Shown: one piece after another, positions 2,136 through 24,245 of the stretch
Numbering within the stretch: the first letter of the stretch is position 1
How the letters are laid out: every line of letters starts with the position of its first letter
Notes under the pieces: model-generated
Told to the model about the DNA's origin: nothing
Database searches by the model: none
What the model saw: only the letters and a program-made list of their open reading frames with translations
Program-made: the position numbers and the translations under genes
Assembly (NCBI GenBank): GCA_947464275.1
Contig: CANHVU010000016.1
Span: forward strand, 1-64,000
Origin: Bacteroidota bacterium
GTDB taxonomy: Bacteria > Bacteroidota > Bacteroidia > UKL13-3
Length of the DNA: 64,000 nucleotides
Direction: 5' to 3'

Positions 2136-4634
2136 ATGGACAAAAAGACAACAAATACAGAAGAACAACAAACCAATTTTGCTGATAATTCCTTAAATTT
2201 AAAGGTAATATTGGGTAAATTCATGGCTTTTTTACCTTTTTTTATAGTAAGTTTAGCCATATCACTTGTTGTAGCTTTTTTAGTAAATAGATACACTACT
2301 CCAAGGTTCGCGCTAAAGGCATCATTATTAATAAAAGACAAAAACAGAACTACTTTTGATGGTGCAGAAAGTTTTTTACAAGGTTCGTCTTTGTTAATGC
2401 AGTCGAAAAATTTAGAAAATGAAATTGGTATTTTAAAATCAAGAAGTTTGGTTGAACAAACTTTAAATGCATTAGATTTTAGAGTTTCTTATTTTGTGGA
2501 AGGAAAAATAAAAAAGACGGAATTGTTCGAAAATCCTCCTTTTATTATTCAGCTTGATTCTACACATTTTCAAACATATGAAACACCAATATACGTTAAA
2601 TTTTTATCAGGTAATAAAGTCGAAGTTTCTTCAAATGGCAAGCCTGGAAAAGTATTAATGCCTTTTGATGAGCAAGAAGTGGAGGATGTAGTATCCAAAG
2701 TAGAAAAAAAAGTATTTGACATTAATGAAGACATTGTTTACGAAAATTTGAAGTTTAAAGTGGTGGTTTTAGATCCATCAATAGTAAACAGCAAAGACAA
2801 TATCTATTACATAAGATTAAATACCAAAGAATCATTGATATTAAAATATGCCAGTAGTATTAACGTAAAAACCATTAATAAGCAGTCGTCAATTGTAGAA
2901 ATAACCAAGGAAAGTAGCTACCCAGAAAAAGATGTTACGTTCATTGATGCACTTTGTAATACCTATATCAATTTAGGGTTAGATGAAAAAGCACAAATTT
3001 CAAAAAATACCATTCGTTTCATCAATCTTCAATTAAATGATATCCAGGATACTTTAAAGAATATTGAAAGTAATCTACTTGCTTTTAAAACAAGTAATAA
3101 ACTAATAAATATAGGCGATGAAGGTAAAATGATTATGGTTAAATTAAGTAACCTAGATAATCAAAAAGCCATTGAACAATCTAAATTTAAATATTACTCT
3201 TATTTATACGACTATATTTATAAAAATAAAAATTTTAAAGAGGTAATAGCACCTAGTTCAATGAACATAGCTGATCCTCTTTTAAATTCTTTGATAATTA
3301 AATTAGCTGAACTTTATACTAAAAAAATTACTTACGAAAATAGTTTTAAAGATGCCAATCCAGCTCTTGTAGAAATTGAGCAGAATATAAAAAATATTAA
3401 ATTATCGCTTATTGAAAACTTAAATAATATTAAGAATCAATCATCGATAATGATAAATGATATTACTACCCAAATTAATGCAGTAGAAAAGGAACTTAAT
3501 ACATTACCAATAACTGAAAGACAATTTTTGAATATCAACAGAAAGTTCAACATCAGTGATAAATTATATACATATTTACTTGAAAAAAGAGCTGAAGCTG
3601 GTATAGCTGGAGCATCGGTTGTGGCAGATAATAAGGTTATAGATAAAGCAATAATTGGAGGTAAAATTTACCCAAAAACATCTACCATTTATTCTTTAGC
3701 ATTAGCTATTGGATTAATTATTCCATTAATTGTGATTTTTGTTATTGAGTTTTTTAGTACTTCTATTATCAATCACCAACAATTGCAAACTGCAACTAAA
3801 ATACCTTTGGTTGGAAATATTATTCACAATTCAAGTAATAGTGCATTAGTTATTGCTAATAGTCCAAAAGCAAGTATTTCTGAGTCTTTTAGAAATTTAA
3901 GGAGTAATCTAAATTATTTGATTAGTAAAAAGGATAAAAAAGTAATTTTAGTAACCTCAACTGTGAGTGGTGAAGGTAAAACATTTGTGTCAATGAATTT
4001 GGCTTCAGTTATTGCTATTGGTGGTGCAAGAACATTGCTAATTGGTGTGGATTTAAGGAAACCAAAAATTTTCCAAGATTTTAACTTAAATAACTCTGTT
4101 GGTTTAACAAATTATTTAATTGGTAAAGCCTCAATTGATGAAATTGTACAAAAAACTAGTTTATCTACCCTCGATATTATTACTGCTGGTCCAACACCTC
4201 CAAATCCCTCAGAGTTATTAATGAGCGATGAGTTTGGTGAACTTTTAGAAATAATGAAGGGGAAATATGATTTTGTTCTTTTAGATACTCCTCCTGTTGG
4301 TTTAGTTGCTGATGGTTTAGATTTGATGAAACATGCCGACTTAAACTTATACATTGTTCGTCAAAAAGTAAGTCGTAAAAATTATTTGAATCTAATTAAC
4401 GACTTGTACAACAGTGATAAAAATACAAATATTGGTATCGTATTTAACGATGTAAACTTTGCCCCTATTTATGGATATGGATATGGAAATGGATACGGAT
4501 ATGGTTATGGATATGGTTACGGTTATGGTTATGGTTACGGTTACGGTTATGGTGCATACTCAAGTTATGGTACCTATGGCGATGACATAGAAAAACCTAA
4601 AAAATCATTATGGAAACGTATTATTGGTTTATAA
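2136..4634 (+). CDS. Wzc-like polysaccharide co-polymerase/BY-kinase
   Basis: A fused inner-membrane chain-length regulator and tyrosine autokinase of 832 residues. The Wzz domain lies between two membrane helices (about 29-52 and 519-541), with a coiled region and a GNVR-like segment before the second helix. The cytoplasmic kinase has Walker A GEGKT (Lys615), Walker A' with Asp639 (GVDLRKPK) and Walker B with Asp717 (LLDTPPV). The C-terminal tail is a run of 14 dipeptides, 13 YG and one NG (residues 779-806), plus Tyr808, 811 and 814. These are the probable autophosphorylation sites. It should control polymerisation and export together with the lipoprotein just upstream. The tail is encoded by a near-perfect hexanucleotide repeat. 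Confidence 0.93.
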   Translation: MDKKTTNTEEQQTNFADNSLNLKVILGKFMAFLPFFIVSLAISLVVAFLVNRYTTPRFALKASLLIKDKNRTTFDGAESFLQGSSLLMQSKNLENEIGILKSRSLVEQTLNALDFRVSYFVEGKIKKTELFENPPFIIQLDSTHFQTYETPIYVKFLSGNKVEVSSNGKPGKVLMPFDEQEVEDVVSKVEKKVFDINEDIVYENLKFKVVVLDPSIVNSKDNIYYIRLNTKESLILKYASSINVKTINKQSSIVEITKESSYPEKDVTFIDALCNTYINLGLDEKAQISKNTIRFINLQLNDIQDTLKNIESNLLAFKTSNKLINIGDEGKMIMVKLSNLDNQKAIEQSKFKYYSYLYDYIYKNKNFKEVIAPSSMNIADPLLNSLIIKLAELYTKKITYENSFKDANPALVEIEQNIKNIKLSLIENLNNIKNQSSIMINDITTQINAVEKELNTLPITERQFLNINRKFNISDKLYTYLLEKRAEAGIAGASVVADNKVIDKAIIGGKIYPKTSTIYSLALAIGLIIPLIVIFVIEFFSTSIINHQQLQTATKIPLVGNIIHNSSNSALVIANSPKASISESFRNLRSNLNYLISKKDKKVILVTSTVSGEGKTFVSMNLASVIAIGGARTLLIGVDLRKPKIFQDFNLNNSVGLTNYLIGKASIDEIVQKTSLSTLDIITAGPTPPNPSELLMSDEFGELLEIMKGKYDFVLLDTPPVGLVADGLDLMKHADLNLYIVRQKVSRKNYLNLINDLYNSDKNTNIGIVFNDVNFAPIYGYGYGNGYGYGYGYGYGYGYGYGYGYGAYSSYGTYGDDIEKPKKSLWKRIIGL
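4470..4553 (+). repeat. Hexanucleotide repeat encoding the Tyr-Gly tail
   Basis: Fourteen six-base units (TAY-GGN, one unit AAT-GGA) encode the YG run of the kinase tail. Gain or loss of units keeps the frame and only changes the number of tyrosines. Confidence 0.9.
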
Positions 4635-4685: not shown

Positions 4686-4971
4686 TGCAATAATATCTAC
4701 AAATTTTGCTATGTTAAAACATAACAAAATGTTGTTAAAAGCCTCAAGTACCCAATATTATGATCACAATTTGTATGGTTACAACAGACTATATTTTGGT
4801 GCTTTGTATCATATTAGAATGATGAATTTATTCCACCTTTGAAACCTTCTTATCTTCATTGTATTTGAGTATAAATGAGGCAAGAAATTACAACAAAATA
4901 TAGCTAATTTTCTAATTAATAAATGCTAGGTAGGGTATTAAATCAATAATTTATAGCAATCTAATTATTCG
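4686..4971. other. Intergenic stretch with no recognisable feature
   Basis: It lies between the terminator of the capsule export operon and the 3' end of a minus-strand gene. A short open frame here shows no domain, signal peptide or family resemblance, and I do not call it. Confidence 0.6.
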
Positions 4972-6639: not shown

Positions 6640-7521
6640 CTAAACGCTCTGAGCAGCAGTTTCTTTCGATATTTTCTTAACCAATCCTTGTAAAACTGTA
6701 CCTGGGCCACACTCGTAAAAGTTAGTAGCACCATCATTTACCATAGCTAAAACCGATTGAGTCCACTTAACTGGAGCAGTTAATTGTGCTACCAAATTGG
6801 TTTTAATTTCTTCTACATTGCTAACAGCTTTAGCTACATAGTTTTGGTAAATTGGGCAAATTGGCTCATTAAACTTTGTGTTTAAAATAGCTTCGGCTAA
6901 TTCTTGGCGAGCAGGTTCCATTAATGGCGAGTGAAAAGCACCACCAACTTGTAGAACCAATGCACGTTTTGCTCCTGCAGCTTTTAATAATTCACAAGCT
7001 TTGTTAATACCTTCAACCGAACCAGAAATTACTAGTTGACCAGGGCAATTATAATTTGCCGCTACCACTAATTCATCGGTGATTGAAGCACAAATTTCTT
7101 CTACTTTAGCATCATCTAAACCTAAAACAGCAGCCATAGTTGATGGTTGCAATTCGCAGGCTTTTTGCATGGCCATTGCTCTAGCATAAACCAAACGCAA
7201 AGCATCATCAAAATTTAAAGTTTTATTAGCAACCAATGCCGAAAATTCGCCTAAACTGTGACCTGCAACCATATCAGGTTTAAAATCACTGCCAATACTC
7301 AATGCCTTAATTACCGAATGCAAAAAAACAGCAGGTTGAGTTACTTTGGTTTGTTTTAAATCTTCGTCAGTTCCGTTAAACATTATGTCTGTAATACGGA
7401 AGCCTAAAATTTCGTTAGCTCTTTCAAACAGTGCTTTTGCATCAGCATTGTTATCATATAAATCTTTGCCCATGCCCACAAATTGAGCACCTTGGCCTGG
7501 GAATACGTATGCGTTTTTCAT
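6640..7521 (-). CDS. fabD: Malonyl-CoA:ACP transacylase
   Basis: Transfers malonyl from CoA to acyl carrier protein at the start of type II fatty acid synthesis, in the cytosol. At 293 residues the length is normal for FabD. The oxyanion motif GQGAQ is at 9-13, the nucleophile Ser89 is in GHSLG, the malonyl-binding Arg114 is in YARAMAMQ, and the catalytic His197 is in GAFHSPLM. It is the second gene of a queD-fabD pair with 25 bp between them. It is not next to other fab genes here. Confidence 0.96.
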   Translation of the reverse strand: MKNAYVFPGQGAQFVGMGKDLYDNNADAKALFERANEILGFRITDIMFNGTDEDLKQTKVTQPAVFLHSVIKALSIGSDFKPDMVAGHSLGEFSALVANKTLNFDDALRLVYARAMAMQKACELQPSTMAAVLGLDDAKVEEICASITDELVVAANYNCPGQLVISGSVEGINKACELLKAAGAKRALVLQVGGAFHSPLMEPARQELAEAILNTKFNEPICPIYQNYVAKAVSNVEEIKTNLVAQLTAPVKWTQSVLAMVNDGATNFYECGPGTVLQGLVKKISKETAAQSV

Positions 7522-8897: not shown

Positions 8898-11624
8898 TTA
8901 TTTTACTCCCATTTTGGCTGCGCCAAATTCTAATATACTATCAATAAACTCGTAAGGTTTATAATTGTTTAAAGCACATTGATGGAAAATAGCTGTAGCT
9001 GGAGTCATTCCTGGTAATGAGTTAATTTCAATAATTACTACCTCTACCCTATTTTTATCGTAAATTCTAACAAAGGCATCAATGCGGCAATAACCTTCCA
9101 CATTTAAAACTTTAGCCGTTTTCTTCAATACCTCTTGTACTTTTTTACTTATTTCGGCTTGTGCTTTTGCATTTTTACTAAACCTACTTGGCGTAATGTT
9201 TTGACCTTGTCCTGCTAAAAACTTTTCCTCTAACGACAATATTTCGCCTTCGGCCAATGTTTCGCTAGGTTCAAACATTTCGTAAGTTAATTTACTTCCT
9301 TTAAAATGAGTAATTAAACCTCCAGTAACTTCTAAAAAGTGTTTGGCATTTCCTTTCTCAACAAATTTTTCTACTAAAAAATAAGCCTTCATTGGAAACT
9401 CTTCTTTTGGTTTTAAACCCAATCTTTCGGCTAATTCGGCTTCCATTACTTCTAAAGGACGGAAAACTCCTTCCGCATAATTGATTAATTCTTGGCGGGT
9501 TTTAATTTTTTTAACTGCACTGCTACAGCCATCATCAGCTGGTTTTGCAATTAAAGGATAACCAATAGCTTCTACCTTTTTGACAACCTCATCTACATTT
9601 TTTTTCCAATCTTTTTGTTGAACCAACATATGTTCAGCAACTAAAATTTTATGCTTTTTAAGCAATTCATTGGTATCGTATTTATTAATGGTAATGCGGC
9701 TGCTTTCAACACCACTTCCATTATAAGGAATTTTTAGTTTGTTTAAGTAAGTTTGAACCGTTCCATCTTCGCCCGGACGACCATGTAATGCAATGAACAC
9801 AGCATCGGCCATTTTTTTCAAATCTTTGTATTCAATTTTTTTAGGAGCAAATAACTGACTTTCTGCATTGCCATATTTATCAATAATAGGTTTGCATTCA
9901 GCAATAATTTTTTCCATAATTGGCAAGCGTTTATAACTGCTCAATTTTTCTTTTATATCGTCAGCATTGTCTTTTAGCATTACATTAACTGGCAATAACC
10001 AAAGTTCGTGTGCGCTATCATTACCCGTTACAAAAACCGGAAAAGGTTGGTATTTAGCCGAAGAAGCTAATTTTTCGTAAATATTTCTTCCACTCTCCAC
10101 CGAAATATGGCGCTCAGTAGAATAACCACCCATAAACACTGCTACGCGTTTTTTAGTGCTTTTTTGTTTTTTATTGTTAGCAATTTTTGAATCTAAATGA
10201 TTTAACAATTCGATGTGATGAAAATGAACTTGCTGCGAATAAGCTCTTTCTGCTAATGAAGTGCGAATGATATAGGTTAAAAACTGCGATGGATTCAAAC
10301 CAATTTCAGCTGCTTGATGAAAAAAGAAACTCGAAGGCATCATACCGCTTGTGGTATTTGGGTCGTTTAAAAACAACTCTCCTTGATTATTTATAAATCC
10401 ATCAATACGCGCATAAACATGGAAATTAAAGAAGGTAAACAACTGTTCACAAGCTTTTCTAATTTCATCTATTTTGCTTTCTGCAATATCAATTGGAGTA
10501 ATTTTTCTACTTAAACCTGGTAAATATTTACTGCGGTAATCATATACTTCTTTGCCTTTAACTATTTCAGTTGGAGGCAATGCTACTGCGGTTCCATCTT
10601 CATTTTTTAGTACAATGCAACTGAACTCTCTGCCTTCTATAAACCCTTCAATTAAACATTCCGTTTCAGAGTAAATACTCTCCAATAGAATTGTTGATTT
10701 GTTGATTTGTTGATTTGTTGATTTAGCTTTACTCTTTAACTGTGAACTAGGTACTAAAAACTGAGAACTAAATAATTCCAACAAATCATCAGGGTTATAA
10801 ATTAATTCCTTTTGATCATTAACAGTAACTATTACTGGTAAACCAATTCCTTCTTTTACATCAGTAATTTTTTGAATGAATTGTGTTTTGGCTTTTTGGT
10901 CTAAATCCACCCATTCATTAGCCGACACCTGTTGTATAAAAAACGATTTTAAAACAGCTTGTTCAAATTGCTCAAAATTATCAGTGCTAATTACCGAAAC
11001 ACCAACTGAACTGCCTTGATTAGCAGGCTTTATTACAAAAGGAAAACCAACTTCCTTGATTACTTTTTTATAAATATTTTTTAAATCAGGCAATTGGTTT
11101 TTGGCAAACGAAAAGTATTTAGGAACATTCATTCCTGCACTTTTCATTAATTGTTTTTGCAAGCGTTTGTTCATTCCCAAAGCACTTGGCATAATGCCAG
11201 AACCACTGTAAGGAATATCCATAAACTCCAATAATCCTTGTATGGTTCCATCTTCGCCATTGGCGCCATGTAAAGCTAAAAAAGCAAAATCAATCAAACC
11301 TTTTAACTCTTCAGGTTTAATGGTTTTTCCTAATTTTTTTATCAATGATTTGCCATTATCCTCATGCGCAGTGGCCAAATTTTCGGCATACACTTGAACC
11401 TCGGTTTTTTGGTTTTTTAAAGCAGAAACGGGTGGATAAAAATCGCGAATGGAACCTTTATAAATATACTCCCAATTTAGCAAAACAAAGTTGTTAAAGC
11501 TATCCACAAAAATGGGAACGGCTTCAAAAAGCGTTTTATCTAAATTATCGTAAACGGTGCGTCCACCTGCAAAACTTACCTCGCGCTCGCGGCTATTGCC
11601 ACCAAAAAATATACCTATTTTCAT
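8898..11624 (-). CDS. ddl: Fused tandem D-alanine-D-alanine ligase (two Ddl/ATP-grasp units)
   Basis: A 908-residue protein made of two complete Ddl-like units; a normal Ddl has about 300-370 residues. Unit 1 (about 1-460) has FFGGNSREREVS, ALHGANGEDGTIQG (118-130), the ATP-grasp lysine block FVIKPANQGSSVGVS and the metal-binding end DPNTTSGM, where the usual Glu is Asp421. Unit 2 (about 491-908) has FMGGYSTERHIS, ALHGRPGEDGTVQ, LIAKPADDGCSS and the canonical EINSLPGMTPAT end. Unit 2 therefore looks more Ddl-like at the metal site, while unit 1 may have altered activity or specificity. A low-complexity insert sits in unit 1 at about residues 285-313. Confidence 0.85.
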   Translation of the reverse strand: MKIGIFFGGNSREREVSFAGGRTVYDNLDKTLFEAVPIFVDSFNNFVLLNWEYIYKGSIRDFYPPVSALKNQKTEVQVYAENLATAHEDNGKSLIKKLGKTIKPEELKGLIDFAFLALHGANGEDGTIQGLLEFMDIPYSGSGIMPSALGMNKRLQKQLMKSAGMNVPKYFSFAKNQLPDLKNIYKKVIKEVGFPFVIKPANQGSSVGVSVISTDNFEQFEQAVLKSFFIQQVSANEWVDLDQKAKTQFIQKITDVKEGIGLPVIVTVNDQKELIYNPDDLLELFSSQFLVPSSQLKSKAKSTNQQINKSTILLESIYSETECLIEGFIEGREFSCIVLKNEDGTAVALPPTEIVKGKEVYDYRSKYLPGLSRKITPIDIAESKIDEIRKACEQLFTFFNFHVYARIDGFINNQGELFLNDPNTTSGMMPSSFFFHQAAEIGLNPSQFLTYIIRTSLAERAYSQQVHFHHIELLNHLDSKIANNKKQKSTKKRVAVFMGGYSTERHISVESGRNIYEKLASSAKYQPFPVFVTGNDSAHELWLLPVNVMLKDNADDIKEKLSSYKRLPIMEKIIAECKPIIDKYGNAESQLFAPKKIEYKDLKKMADAVFIALHGRPGEDGTVQTYLNKLKIPYNGSGVESSRITINKYDTNELLKKHKILVAEHMLVQQKDWKKNVDEVVKKVEAIGYPLIAKPADDGCSSAVKKIKTRQELINYAEGVFRPLEVMEAELAERLGLKPKEEFPMKAYFLVEKFVEKGNAKHFLEVTGGLITHFKGSKLTYEMFEPSETLAEGEILSLEEKFLAGQGQNITPSRFSKNAKAQAEISKKVQEVLKKTAKVLNVEGYCRIDAFVRIYDKNRVEVVIIEINSLPGMTPATAIFHQCALNNYKPYEFIDSILEFGAAKMGVK
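10691..10722 (+). repeat. Four perfect octamer repeats inside the ligase gene
   Basis: TTGTTGAT is repeated four times without error. On the coding strand this encodes about residues 301-312. The unit is 8 bases, so gain or loss of one copy shifts the frame. The same octamer occurs twice in intergenic DNA at about 15949-15965. Confidence 0.95.
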
Positions 11625-14850: not shown

Positions 14851-15906
14851 CTATTCTTCTTCTTTAAAATAAATTTTATAAAACTTTCGTCCATCGGGTT
14901 CCACCCCTTGCTCAATTAATTCACGGTTTCCATGAATATAAATATGGAAATTTTTATCCAATTTAAGCACGCTTTTAAATATCCTGGCTTGTTTTTTAAC
15001 TGCTTGGCTCGATATATCAAAACTATCTGAAATATCCAATTCATTACTCATTCTGTATGCTTCATCAAAGGTGCGGAACGATTCTATTACCCCTTCATCT
15101 TTAAAAACAGCTTGTTCAAACTCTTGCTTATCAAAAGTATCGTTGGTTTTAAAATAATCAACCGAACGATTCAAGTAATCTATTTGATCTGCTTTGGTAA
15201 CTTCAAATTCTTCGTTCAATTGTTTGGTTACAAAGTTTTTAGCAATATTCATAAACTCCTTGGTGTGGTTATAATTATTACTACAAGGCTTTAATTGTAA
15301 AAAACTATCCTTCCAATATTGCGCTTCGCTGCCTTTATTTCCTTTATCAATTATACAAACTTTATAACCTTGGTTGGCATTGGTATTAAATATCAAACAA
15401 CCTTTATCCAACTTATCAATGTTAATTCCATCATTATAACTTACATCAAAAACATTATTAGTTTGGTTCAATTTTAAAAAGTCGTATTTATTTTCCGACT
15501 TAAAAATTCCAATAGCTTCTACATCTTCATCTTCTACCTGAATATTGGGAAAATAAGCTATAAATAAATCACCACTTTTTATTTGTGGATGAGTAGATAG
15601 TTCATATAAATGCTTTGCAATATTGATGCTATTGATATGAAATGCATTACCATGTTCGAACATTTGTAATGCATAATTATAAATAGGGTTTAAGGTAAAA
15701 TCATTATTGCTAAAACTAAAATTATAAAACTCAGGATTATTGAAAGAGGTTACAAAAAATTTCATCAATAAATCTTTCAATTTCCCATCGCTTAAATCCA
15801 ACAAATCCTTTGATATGATTAAATCTTCGCCATTGGTTTTATTCCCTACCTGATGTACCGAAACCTTGTTTAATTGGGTTGTTTCTAATTCGAATTTTTC
15901 TGCCAT
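14851..15906 (-). CDS. Nucleoid-associated protein (NdpA/YejK-like, PF04245)
   Basis: A 351-residue protein of the 37-kDa nucleoid-associated family, thought to bind DNA in the cytosol. Typical features are the N-terminal VHQVGNKTNGEDLIISKDLL segment, the SGDLFIAYFPNIQVEDEDVEAIGIFKSENK block in the middle (about 116-145), and the C-terminal DKNFHIYIHGNRELIEQGVEPDGRKFYKIYF block, which is strongly conserved. Its role in the cell is not well known. It stands alone, transcribed on the minus strand. Confidence 0.85.
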   Translation of the reverse strand: MAEKFELETTQLNKVSVHQVGNKTNGEDLIISKDLLDLSDGKLKDLLMKFFVTSFNNPEFYNFSFSNNDFTLNPIYNYALQMFEHGNAFHINSINIAKHLYELSTHPQIKSGDLFIAYFPNIQVEDEDVEAIGIFKSENKYDFLKLNQTNNVFDVSYNDGINIDKLDKGCLIFNTNANQGYKVCIIDKGNKGSEAQYWKDSFLQLKPCSNNYNHTKEFMNIAKNFVTKQLNEEFEVTKADQIDYLNRSVDYFKTNDTFDKQEFEQAVFKDEGVIESFRTFDEAYRMSNELDISDSFDISSQAVKKQARIFKSVLKLDKNFHIYIHGNRELIEQGVEPDGRKFYKIYFKEEE

Positions 15907-15948
15907 TAATTGTTAAATATTGGGGGAAATATATGGATAATAATTGTG

Positions 15949-15965
15949 ATTGTTGATTTGTTGAT
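15949..15965 (+). repeat. Intergenic copy of the TTGTTGAT octamer
   Basis: Two perfect tandem copies of the octamer found inside the ligase gene, here in non-coding DNA between two minus-strand genes. Confidence 0.7.
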
Positions 15966-15971
15966 TACATA

Positions 15972-16442
15972 TTACAATGAACGGAACTCTTTTAAAATAT
16001 TAATGGGGTCTTGATCAAAATCTTTAAATGGTTTTGGCTCAATAACTATTGTTTTTGTTAGTGATGAATTAATACATTCATAAGCTTGCTTATTATTTAT
16101 TTCGAATTGCTCATTTAAAATTACTAAAAAATTTCCTTTGTACTTTATATCTTTATATCTTGTAATTTCTATTAAACTTTTCTTGGAGTTTATTATCAGT
16201 AAAACCTCACTATTCTCTTCAATAATTATATATTTTTTATTTAACCATTTTATAAAAAGTAATGTAATAGTAATAATCAAATCAGTTATACCAATAATAA
16301 TTAATATTCCAGAAACTTCTTCCAAAGATGTAAAAGCATGCATAATACTGGAAAGTATAAATAGAACAACAAAGACATAAAGTCCAATAATAATAGCTTT
16401 GTTTAATGTTTTTTGACTGGATGATATGATATAAACTTTCAT
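15972..16442 (-). CDS. Hypothetical membrane protein with a PH-like cytoplasmic tail
   Basis: Not recognised. It has 156 residues with two membrane helices (about 16-38 and 45-66). A soluble tail follows, with the strand pattern YIIIEENSEVLLIIN...LIEITRYKDIKYKGNFLVI, which looks like a small bacterial PH-type domain. The frame stays open to 16475, but the extra 11 codons run through a perfect hairpin (16454-16475) and read as junk (MLAMTPTSAKN). I therefore start at the second ATG, which gives MKVYIISS. Confidence 0.6.
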   Translation of the reverse strand: MKVYIISSSQKTLNKAIIIGLYVFVVLFILSSIMHAFTSLEEVSGILIIIGITDLIITITLLFIKWLNKKYIIIEENSEVLLIINSKKSLIEITRYKDIKYKGNFLVILNEQFEINNKQAYECINSSLTKTIVIEPKPFKDFDQDPINILKEFRSL

Positions 16443-16453
16443 GTTTTTTGCCG

Positions 16454-16475
16454 ATGTTGGCGTCATCGCCAACAT
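16454..16475 (+). repeat. Perfect 9-bp inverted repeat upstream of a start codon
   Basis: ATGTTGGCG, loop TCAT, CGCCAACAT. It lies 11 bases ahead of the chosen start of the membrane protein gene, in its leader. Confidence 0.75.
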
Positions 16476-16564
16476 ATAAAAGTATGTAATATAATTCTAA
16501 AAGTACTTATTGTATTTCATATTCAACAATAAAAAATTTTATCTAAACTCAAAATACGTTTTTT

Positions 16565-16589
16565 GTTGCAGCCTGAGAACGCCTGCAAC
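16565..16589 (+). repeat. Palindromic intergenic element
   Basis: GTTGCAG, an 11-base loop CCTGAGAACGC, then CTGCAAC. The 7-bp arms are perfect. It lies between two minus-strand genes. I have the impression this is a dispersed repeat type in the phylum, but within this window I see one copy. Confidence 0.5.
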
Positions 16590-16640
16590 GGCCGGAACAT
16601 TTGTTATTATGATGAAAGTTAATGCAGAGCATTTCAACCT

Positions 16641-17075
16641 TTACCACTTATTCAAAGTTACAGGTAGCATTTTTAAGTCAGATAAATTTAGGTTTTCCTT
16701 AAGTAAAACATCATTTAATAATTGAAATTCTCCGCTTCTACCAACTATTTTTAAAACTAGATTCCCAGAAATTCCTTCCTTTTCCGTAATGTTTAATAAT
16801 TCCTTGTAAATATTATTATATAAAAAATTATCCATAAAAAATCCCTGTTTAATTACACCATTAATATTTTCATAATACATTTCTGAAAATTGCACTTCTG
16901 GATAAGCAAGTTTTGTGACTATTAATGGGATAAAAACTAAATAATAATATTCTTCATTTTCAAAAAATTCACTTTCCATGAAAAGAATATATAACTCTTT
17001 TTCTGACAATTGACTAGTTGCATTTTCAAAAATTTCAATTGCTTTTTTTACTTTATGTTCAACAGTATTTTTCAT
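16641..17075 (-). CDS. Hypothetical protein
   Basis: Not recognised. It has 144 residues and is acidic, with no signal peptide or membrane helix. The first third is helical (KVKKAIEIFENATSQLSEKELYILFME). A run of tyrosines and glutamates (FFENEEYYYLVFIPL) follows, and the end is mixed alpha/beta. It lies 34 bp past the start of the DUF2130 gene on the same strand, so it could share its transcript. Its size and acidity would suit an immunity or cytosolic accessory protein, but nothing proves this. Confidence 0.55.
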   Translation of the reverse strand: MKNTVEHKVKKAIEIFENATSQLSEKELYILFMESEFFENEEYYYLVFIPLIVTKLAYPEVQFSEMYYENINGVIKQGFFMDNFLYNNIYKELLNITEKEGISGNLVLKIVGRSGEFQLLNDVLLKENLNLSDLKMLPVTLNKW

Positions 17076-17109
17076 TAATCCAATACAAACCCATTCAGAT
17101 AATTTAGTG

Positions 17110-24000: not shown

Positions 24001-24245
24001 TTATTCTGCTTTAGACTTTTACAAGTATTATGATAAATCCACTTAAAAAAAAGTTTATAATAAAAAATATCAAATCAACCTTGAAAAGGTAAGCAGCTAA
24101 AGATAGTGTGTAGCCAAATCGCATCACATTCTGACCATCCAACCAATAAACCAGATCAATAATGTAACAATTCAACCATCTAACAATTCAACCAATAAAC
24201 CATCCAACCACTCAACAATTCAACTAACTTTGTGCATAACTTGTG
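24001..24245. other. Intergenic stretch with degenerate CAACCA-type repeats
   Basis: No gene is visible. From about 24133 to 24230 the sequence is an imperfect array of CCAACCA, CAATAAACCA and ACAATTCAACCA words upstream of dnaN. Confidence 0.6.

Follow-up and report, generated by a model that had tools for sequence, protein, structure and literature searches.

In-frame heptamer and octamer arrays of an intergenic type in a fused D-alanine--D-alanine ligase and other housekeeping genes of a Bacteroidota genus

The Ligase Gene and Its Repeat

The window analyzed in this study is a stretch of 64,000 nucleotides from a Bacteroidota bacterium (contig CANHVU010000016.1). It contains an open reading frame (ORF) of 908 codons whose product matched the Dala_Dala_lig_N model twice and the Dala_Dala_lig_C model in several stretches. 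The NCBIfam D-ala-D-ala ligase model exceeded its cut-off on this ORF, and the best Foldseek matches of the modeled protein were Ddl structures. Judged by its sequence, the protein is a fusion of two complete predicted ligase units with a repeat in a loop of the first (Table 1). When the genome was searched with the fused ligase only the gene itself was retrieved, without a further D-Ala-D-Ala ligase; the remaining PF07478 matches sit in ORFs of other sizes, which we regard as encoding different ATP-grasp enzymes. The fused ligase gene is probably an essential one. Across about 10 families of the class the fusion was the sole Ddl-like match, other families having a single-unit ligase, and no paper on a fused two-unit ligase was found in our literature search.

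The repeat consists of four exact octamers, which read as TTGTTGAT on the window strand and as AATCAACA on the coding strand, with 4.2 exact copies over positions 10691-10724. No second perfect period-8 array within the window reached the same score. A preceding reading of the letters alone (hereafter the sequence-only reading) had already placed four exact units in the coding region, and they do lie within the ligase ORF. It had also likened the adjacent codons (FLVPSSQLKSKAK) to intergenic filler; these correspond to residues ~288-300 and are decayed heptamers of intergenic type. In the order of the segment the decayed heptamers (TTTAGTTCTCAGTTTTTAGTACCTAGTTCACAGTT) come first and the octamers last.

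Using a 16-mer of the array (TTGTTGATTTGTTGAT) as query and allowing at most two mismatches, five occurrences were found in the window against 0.35 expected, a number matched by 0 of 100 shuffles of the window. In the draft genome the octamer 16-mer was located at the ligase site, at position 15950 and at C20:10763. The sequence-only reading had reported the octamer in non-coding DNA near 15949-15965, and a two-unit copy is indeed present there. In the related genome G004 about 130 bp of different sequence stand in place of the surrounding stretch of the window (15907-17081, from the NA37-like gene to 17082, with the two-unit octamer and ORF 15972-16475). Elsewhere in the window (4469-4553), 14 TTATGG hexamers encode a C-terminal (GY)n tail on a protein of 832 aa that resembles polysaccharide-export tyrosine kinases; this hexamer is kept in frame by its unit length.

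Table 1. Positions of the fused ligase gene, its repeat-derived segment and related arrays (window coordinates unless a locus or contig is given; G000 is the source genome).
Feature	Position	Strand	Remarks
Tandem (fused) D-alanine--D-alanine ligase, 908 aa	8898-11624	-	Unit 1, residues ~1-460; unit 2, residues ~493-905
Genus-specific repeat-derived segment, residues ~285-313	10686-10772	-	From orthologue alignments and AlphaFold
Four exact octamers (AATCAACA on the coding strand)	10691-10722	-	Cyclic STNQQINK in any frame
Degenerate heptamer run YAGTTNN (TTTAGTTCTCAGTTTTTAGTACCTAGTTCACAGTT)	10738-10772	-	Adjoins the octamers
Two-unit copy of the ligase octamer, non-coding	15950-15966	+	In the 65-bp gap between ORFs 14851-15906 and 15972-16475
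Degenerate octamer array, same class as the ligase octamers, non-coding	24158-24224	.
HisRS, in-frame AAATTCG-type heptamers	L133 (G000:C20) 4923-4954
IleRS, in-frame AAATTCG-type heptamers	L172 (G000:C4) 1469-1504
HutH, in-frame AAATTCG-type heptamers	L133 (G000:C20) 6664-6698
PurL loop, source genome	G000:C1:154439-154469		CATTCAA units, 13 aa
PurL loop, close relative G004	L293		AAATTCG units, 13 aa

Data and Searches

Relatives of the ligase were collected from 56 of the 58 related genomes and from 77 loci of named genomes, a search in which single-unit ligase families yield partial matches only. The gene flanks on both sides of the array were compared in a codon alignment from which G006 and G018 were left out as misplaced. 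Repeat arrays were counted with a periodicity scan of 1.264 Mb, i.e., 37% of one genome (the source genome G000), sampled in stretches. Among the further genes with in-frame arrays, HisRS, IleRS, and HutH were named by NCBIfam, and the other names rest on sequence reading.

A Genus-Specific Segment in a Predicted Loop

The linker between the DVKEG and GREFS motifs of the ligase spans 58-65 aa in most orthologues outside the genus and 81 aa in the window; within the genus it measures 77-96 aa, but 67 aa in G006. The sequence-only reading had proposed aligning orthologues to see whether residues ~285-313 were missing, and in the alignment these residues were confined to the genus and absent from the orthologues outside it. 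The AlphaFold model, built on 37 aligned sequences, had a mean pLDDT of 84.6, with values below 50 at residues 292-307, which are flanked by a helix (278-288) and a strand (311-316). These residues are predicted from the model to form a disordered, floppy loop of the first ligase unit.

In-gene insertions were also seen in other fused ligases. In Hymenobacter metallilatus (L091, 7249-7325) a second one occupies a different loop and consists of inverted heptamers with CAGAAAC units at its end, and Hymenobacter and L032 carry inverted heptamer arrays in the same ligase linker at a nearby site.

Alleles at the Ligase Loop

Two types of allele were distinguished at the loop. Type A, with heptamers and octamers, was found in G000, G001, G003, G007, G008, and G009, while type B, made up of CTTCGACAAGCTCAGCGACC and AAATCAA or AAATCCG units, was found in G004 and G005, the latter having GTCATCCTGAGCGAAGTCGAAGGA in addition. 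Exactly four octamers are present in five of the type-A species, which show strong synonymous divergence, and four decayed units in the sixth (G003). At the same spot G006 has a precursor of one and a half units (AAATCAACCAATCAA). In G007 the octamer array is cut off by the end of a contig (C228, L037), and another contig holds a second ligase copy of full length; the two copies probably represent two strains in one bin.

Over the octamers 55 nt are identical between G000 and each of G001, G007, and G008, the longest identical run, with a four-fold-site identity of only 0.42-0.46 for the same comparisons. A codon-specific estimate of the chance of identity of the array codons gave 2e-5 to 7e-4 per pair, to be read as resting on small counts and non-independent pairs. 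Possible causes of the 55-nt identity are short-tract recombination, homogenization of the array, or constraint.

The gene flanks group G004 with G000 and G003 on both sides of the loop and G005 with the other clade, so that allele type and gene tree are in conflict. Conversion of a tract carrying the type-B segment from G005 to G004 was rejected on account of this grouping of the G004 flanks, which leaves a very short exchange or an old allele common to both genomes as the explanations that fit.

Repeat Arrays in Intergenic DNA

The periodicity scan recovered 32 degenerate arrays with a 7-bp and 10 with an 8-bp period, compared with 0-5 for the other periods from 5 to 13. Most of these arrays (34/42) lay outside ORFs, at a density about 26-fold that of coding DNA. 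The coding arrays were found by scanning 37% of one genome, and their total is therefore a lower bound. Between genes heptamer arrays adjoin octamer arrays, 3 of the 10 octamer arrays having one within 60 bp. Arrays open in all frames made up 5/6 of the coding and 4/34 of the intergenic arrays (P = 0.001); the idea that coding arrays are specially stop-free was nevertheless rejected after a length-matched test (P = 0.24).

Both families of the ligase segment, the AATCAACA octamers and the YAGTTNN heptamers, are present in intergenic DNA. A 19-mer of the insert, AGTTTTTAGTACCTAGTTC (10744-10762), recurs exactly in the intergenic array C2:45421, and at up to two mismatches it matched 15 places and the reversed control none; the four others that fall within the sampled DNA are non-coding. 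The shared 19-mer and the side-by-side intergenic arrays uphold the view of the sequence-only reading that a repeat of intergenic type was inserted in frame, with the same repeat families also present between the genes of this genome. The octamer array that lies between genes at C20:10762 has a clearly different length and set of units in G000 than in G004.

In-Frame Arrays in Other Genes

Besides the heptamer arrays in HisRS, IleRS, and HutH (Table 1), the source genome has further in-frame arrays in PurL and an FAD oxidoreductase, and the relatives contribute arrays in ValRS, PheRS-beta, and MetRS. The heptamer AAATTCG, which encodes KFEIRNS in any frame, occurs in at least eight unrelated genes (HisRS, IleRS, HutH, PurL, ValRS, PheRS-beta, MetRS, and others), which span the genus and one genome from another genus of the family. 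Shared repeat families are present both between genes and inside several genes that are unrelated. The ligase octamer itself is in frame in two more ORFs, one each in G003 and G004.

The array sites of HisRS, IleRS, and HutH are loops that vary among relatives, and the IleRS loop contains LSVAERSRS, the translation of the CTGAGCGTAGTCGAA palindrome family. The sequence of the units shifts in concert between species, often at constant loop length. In HutH, for example, AAATTCG is present four times in G001, G002, G005, and G009, and AAGTTCG-type units are present in G003 and G004; the PurL loops of G000 and G004 differ in their units and have the same length.

Discussion

We consider it probable that a composite array of 7-bp and 8-bp units, of the type found between the genes of this genus, has become lodged in frame in the ligase loop, that it does not act as a switch, and that other genes have received such arrays likewise. 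Import from intergenic arrays followed by selection on the reading frame is what we infer from the shared repeat families and the fixed length.

The sequence-only reading had described the octamers as having the pattern of a phase-variable gene. An octamer inside an ORF is not a multiple of three, and the claim that one unit gained or lost shifts the frame is correct, the gain or loss of one or two units leading to a stop at codon 317-327 of 908. Intergenic octamer arrays do vary in length between relatives, and a tract so unusually identical across diverged clades could mean active turnover. On the other side, four units have been retained in six species, and all intact type-A alleles have this copy number. 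Four units are short for slippage-driven switching. The Ddl protein is presumably cytosolic and no surface antigen, and since the genome showed no further ligase of this kind, switching it off would be expected to kill the cell. Translation of the downstream unit alone, which the sequence-only reading had raised, is not an obvious way out; the next methionines after the array are residues 428, 429, 498, and 549, which sit within or beyond conserved ligase sequence. That reading had also named two observations that together would speak against it, namely a lack of length variants, which is what the available genomes show, and conservation of the repeat in distant orthologues, which is not what was found. 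Slippage of the octamers turning the ligase on and off is very unlikely, and from the fixed length we conclude that the array is probably no on/off switch.

A less improbable alternative, though still an unlikely one, is that slippage generates the arrays on the spot, in loops that were variable already, and that the shared families reflect mutational bias. The short precursor of G006 lies at the same position, and repeated slippage and reversal can give concerted change at fixed length. Single-unit intermediates would however be frameshifts in essential genes, and the recurrence of AAATTCG in at least eight unrelated genes, the exact 19-nt degenerate stretch common to an intergenic array (with none for the reversed control), and a non-tandem palindrome family (TTCGACAAGCTCAGC) in other alleles of the loop all argue against it. 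It is improbable that the STNQQINK-type peptide or the array DNA is functional as a linker, protein-binding site, or RNA element. The 55-nt run, identical despite the low four-fold-site identity, would fit such a role, yet short-tract recombination between species accounts for it equally well; the array has decayed in G003, one of the nearest relatives, an unrelated segment takes its place in G004 and G005, and the ligase family works without the segment. A conserved functional insert was rejected, since G004, G005, and the orthologues outside the genus lack the segment or have another in its place. The chance of an artefact of metagenome assembly is negligible: the source genome is a draft of 68 contigs and one G007 contig ends within the array, but the same four-unit array was read through inside contigs in five separate assemblies.

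If, as we prefer, the arrays were imported, a degenerate 7-bp and a perfect 8-bp array would have lodged as a composite in a variable surface loop of the sole D-Ala-D-Ala ligase. Neither 7 nor 8 is divisible by 3, so that an array free of stops yields one cyclic peptide whichever frame is read, and the landing frame is therefore irrelevant, only total length and site being of importance. Any landing frame would be tolerated provided that the overall length is divisible by three and the site a flexible loop, and purifying selection on the frame would then lock the number of units. Growth at the site itself may account for the octamer part, as suggested by the shorter precursor in G006. The same process would have marked HisRS, IleRS, ValRS, PheRS-beta, PurL, HutH, and others in the genus, with units perhaps rewritten at constant length by templated exchange with other arrays, which is our preferred guess. 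Neither a donor, a target duplication, nor a mobility enzyme was identified for the arrays, and no empty-site pair with a target duplication was found.

Several known systems resemble these arrays in part. The Rickettsia palindromic elements (RPEs; Ogata et al., 2000; reviewed in PMC10969869) are palindromes of ~150 bp in frame in housekeeping genes. The likeness lies in dispersed small repeats of non-coding type that are in frame in unrelated housekeeping genes and tolerated by the protein, and the insert is likewise absent from the orthologues of relatives. RPEs, however, are palindromic units of ~150 bp with their own conserved peptide, whereas the inserts described here are ~25-90 bp long and mostly direct tandem 7- or 8-mers, with no fixed element and all frames identical; the ligase insert is made of direct tandem units and is no palindromic element of ~100-150 bp with conserved ends. 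TAACTGA and other heptamer direct repeats were described from Beggiatoaceae, Cyanobacteria, and some Bacteroidetes (MacGregor, 2015; PMC4679880), mainly intergenic, mostly at upstream sites and mainly of one heptamer, one set lying within purC. Both cases have in common heptamer direct repeats of Bacteroidetes that are chiefly intergenic and can be mixed within one region, but here the units are AAATTCG, CATTCAA, AACTTCG, and AATCAACA, many are coding and in essential enzymes, and octamers occur too. For prokaryotic repeats of 5-11 nt heptanucleotides were reported to be commonest, with slippage as the proposed source (Mrazek et al., 2007, as cited in PMC4679880); in contrast to such long simple sequence repeats, the present arrays are degenerate, length-locked in coding loops, and common to several genes. 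With contingency loci of the Haemophilus type they have in common a repeat unit within an ORF whose length is not divisible by three, but the ligase is probably essential and cytosolic, its array is short, and no length variation was seen. A literature search, covering few subscription papers, found no account of in-frame heptamer or octamer arrays across Bacteroidota housekeeping genes, and a search for the array and palindrome sequences gave no matches.

Frame-breaking repeats are usually read as a sign of phase variation or of non-coding DNA, and here they are stable in aminoacyl-tRNA synthetases and a cell-wall ligase. We caution that such loci should not be called phase-variable on the basis of sequence alone. 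The arrays point to a rule for the survival of repeats within genes (a unit length coprime to 3, a stop-free strand, and a loop site), account for peptides like SKFEIRNSKFEIRN and LSVAERSRS in the enzymes of these bacteria, and offer a direct test of how essential proteins gain new loop sequence. More tentatively, and with less than even confidence, frame-neutral 7- and 8-mers may be actively copied between intergenic DNA and variable loops of essential enzymes throughout the phylum and their units rewritten at constant length by templated conversion; if so, loop sequences would change through the exchange of arrays instead of through point mutation.
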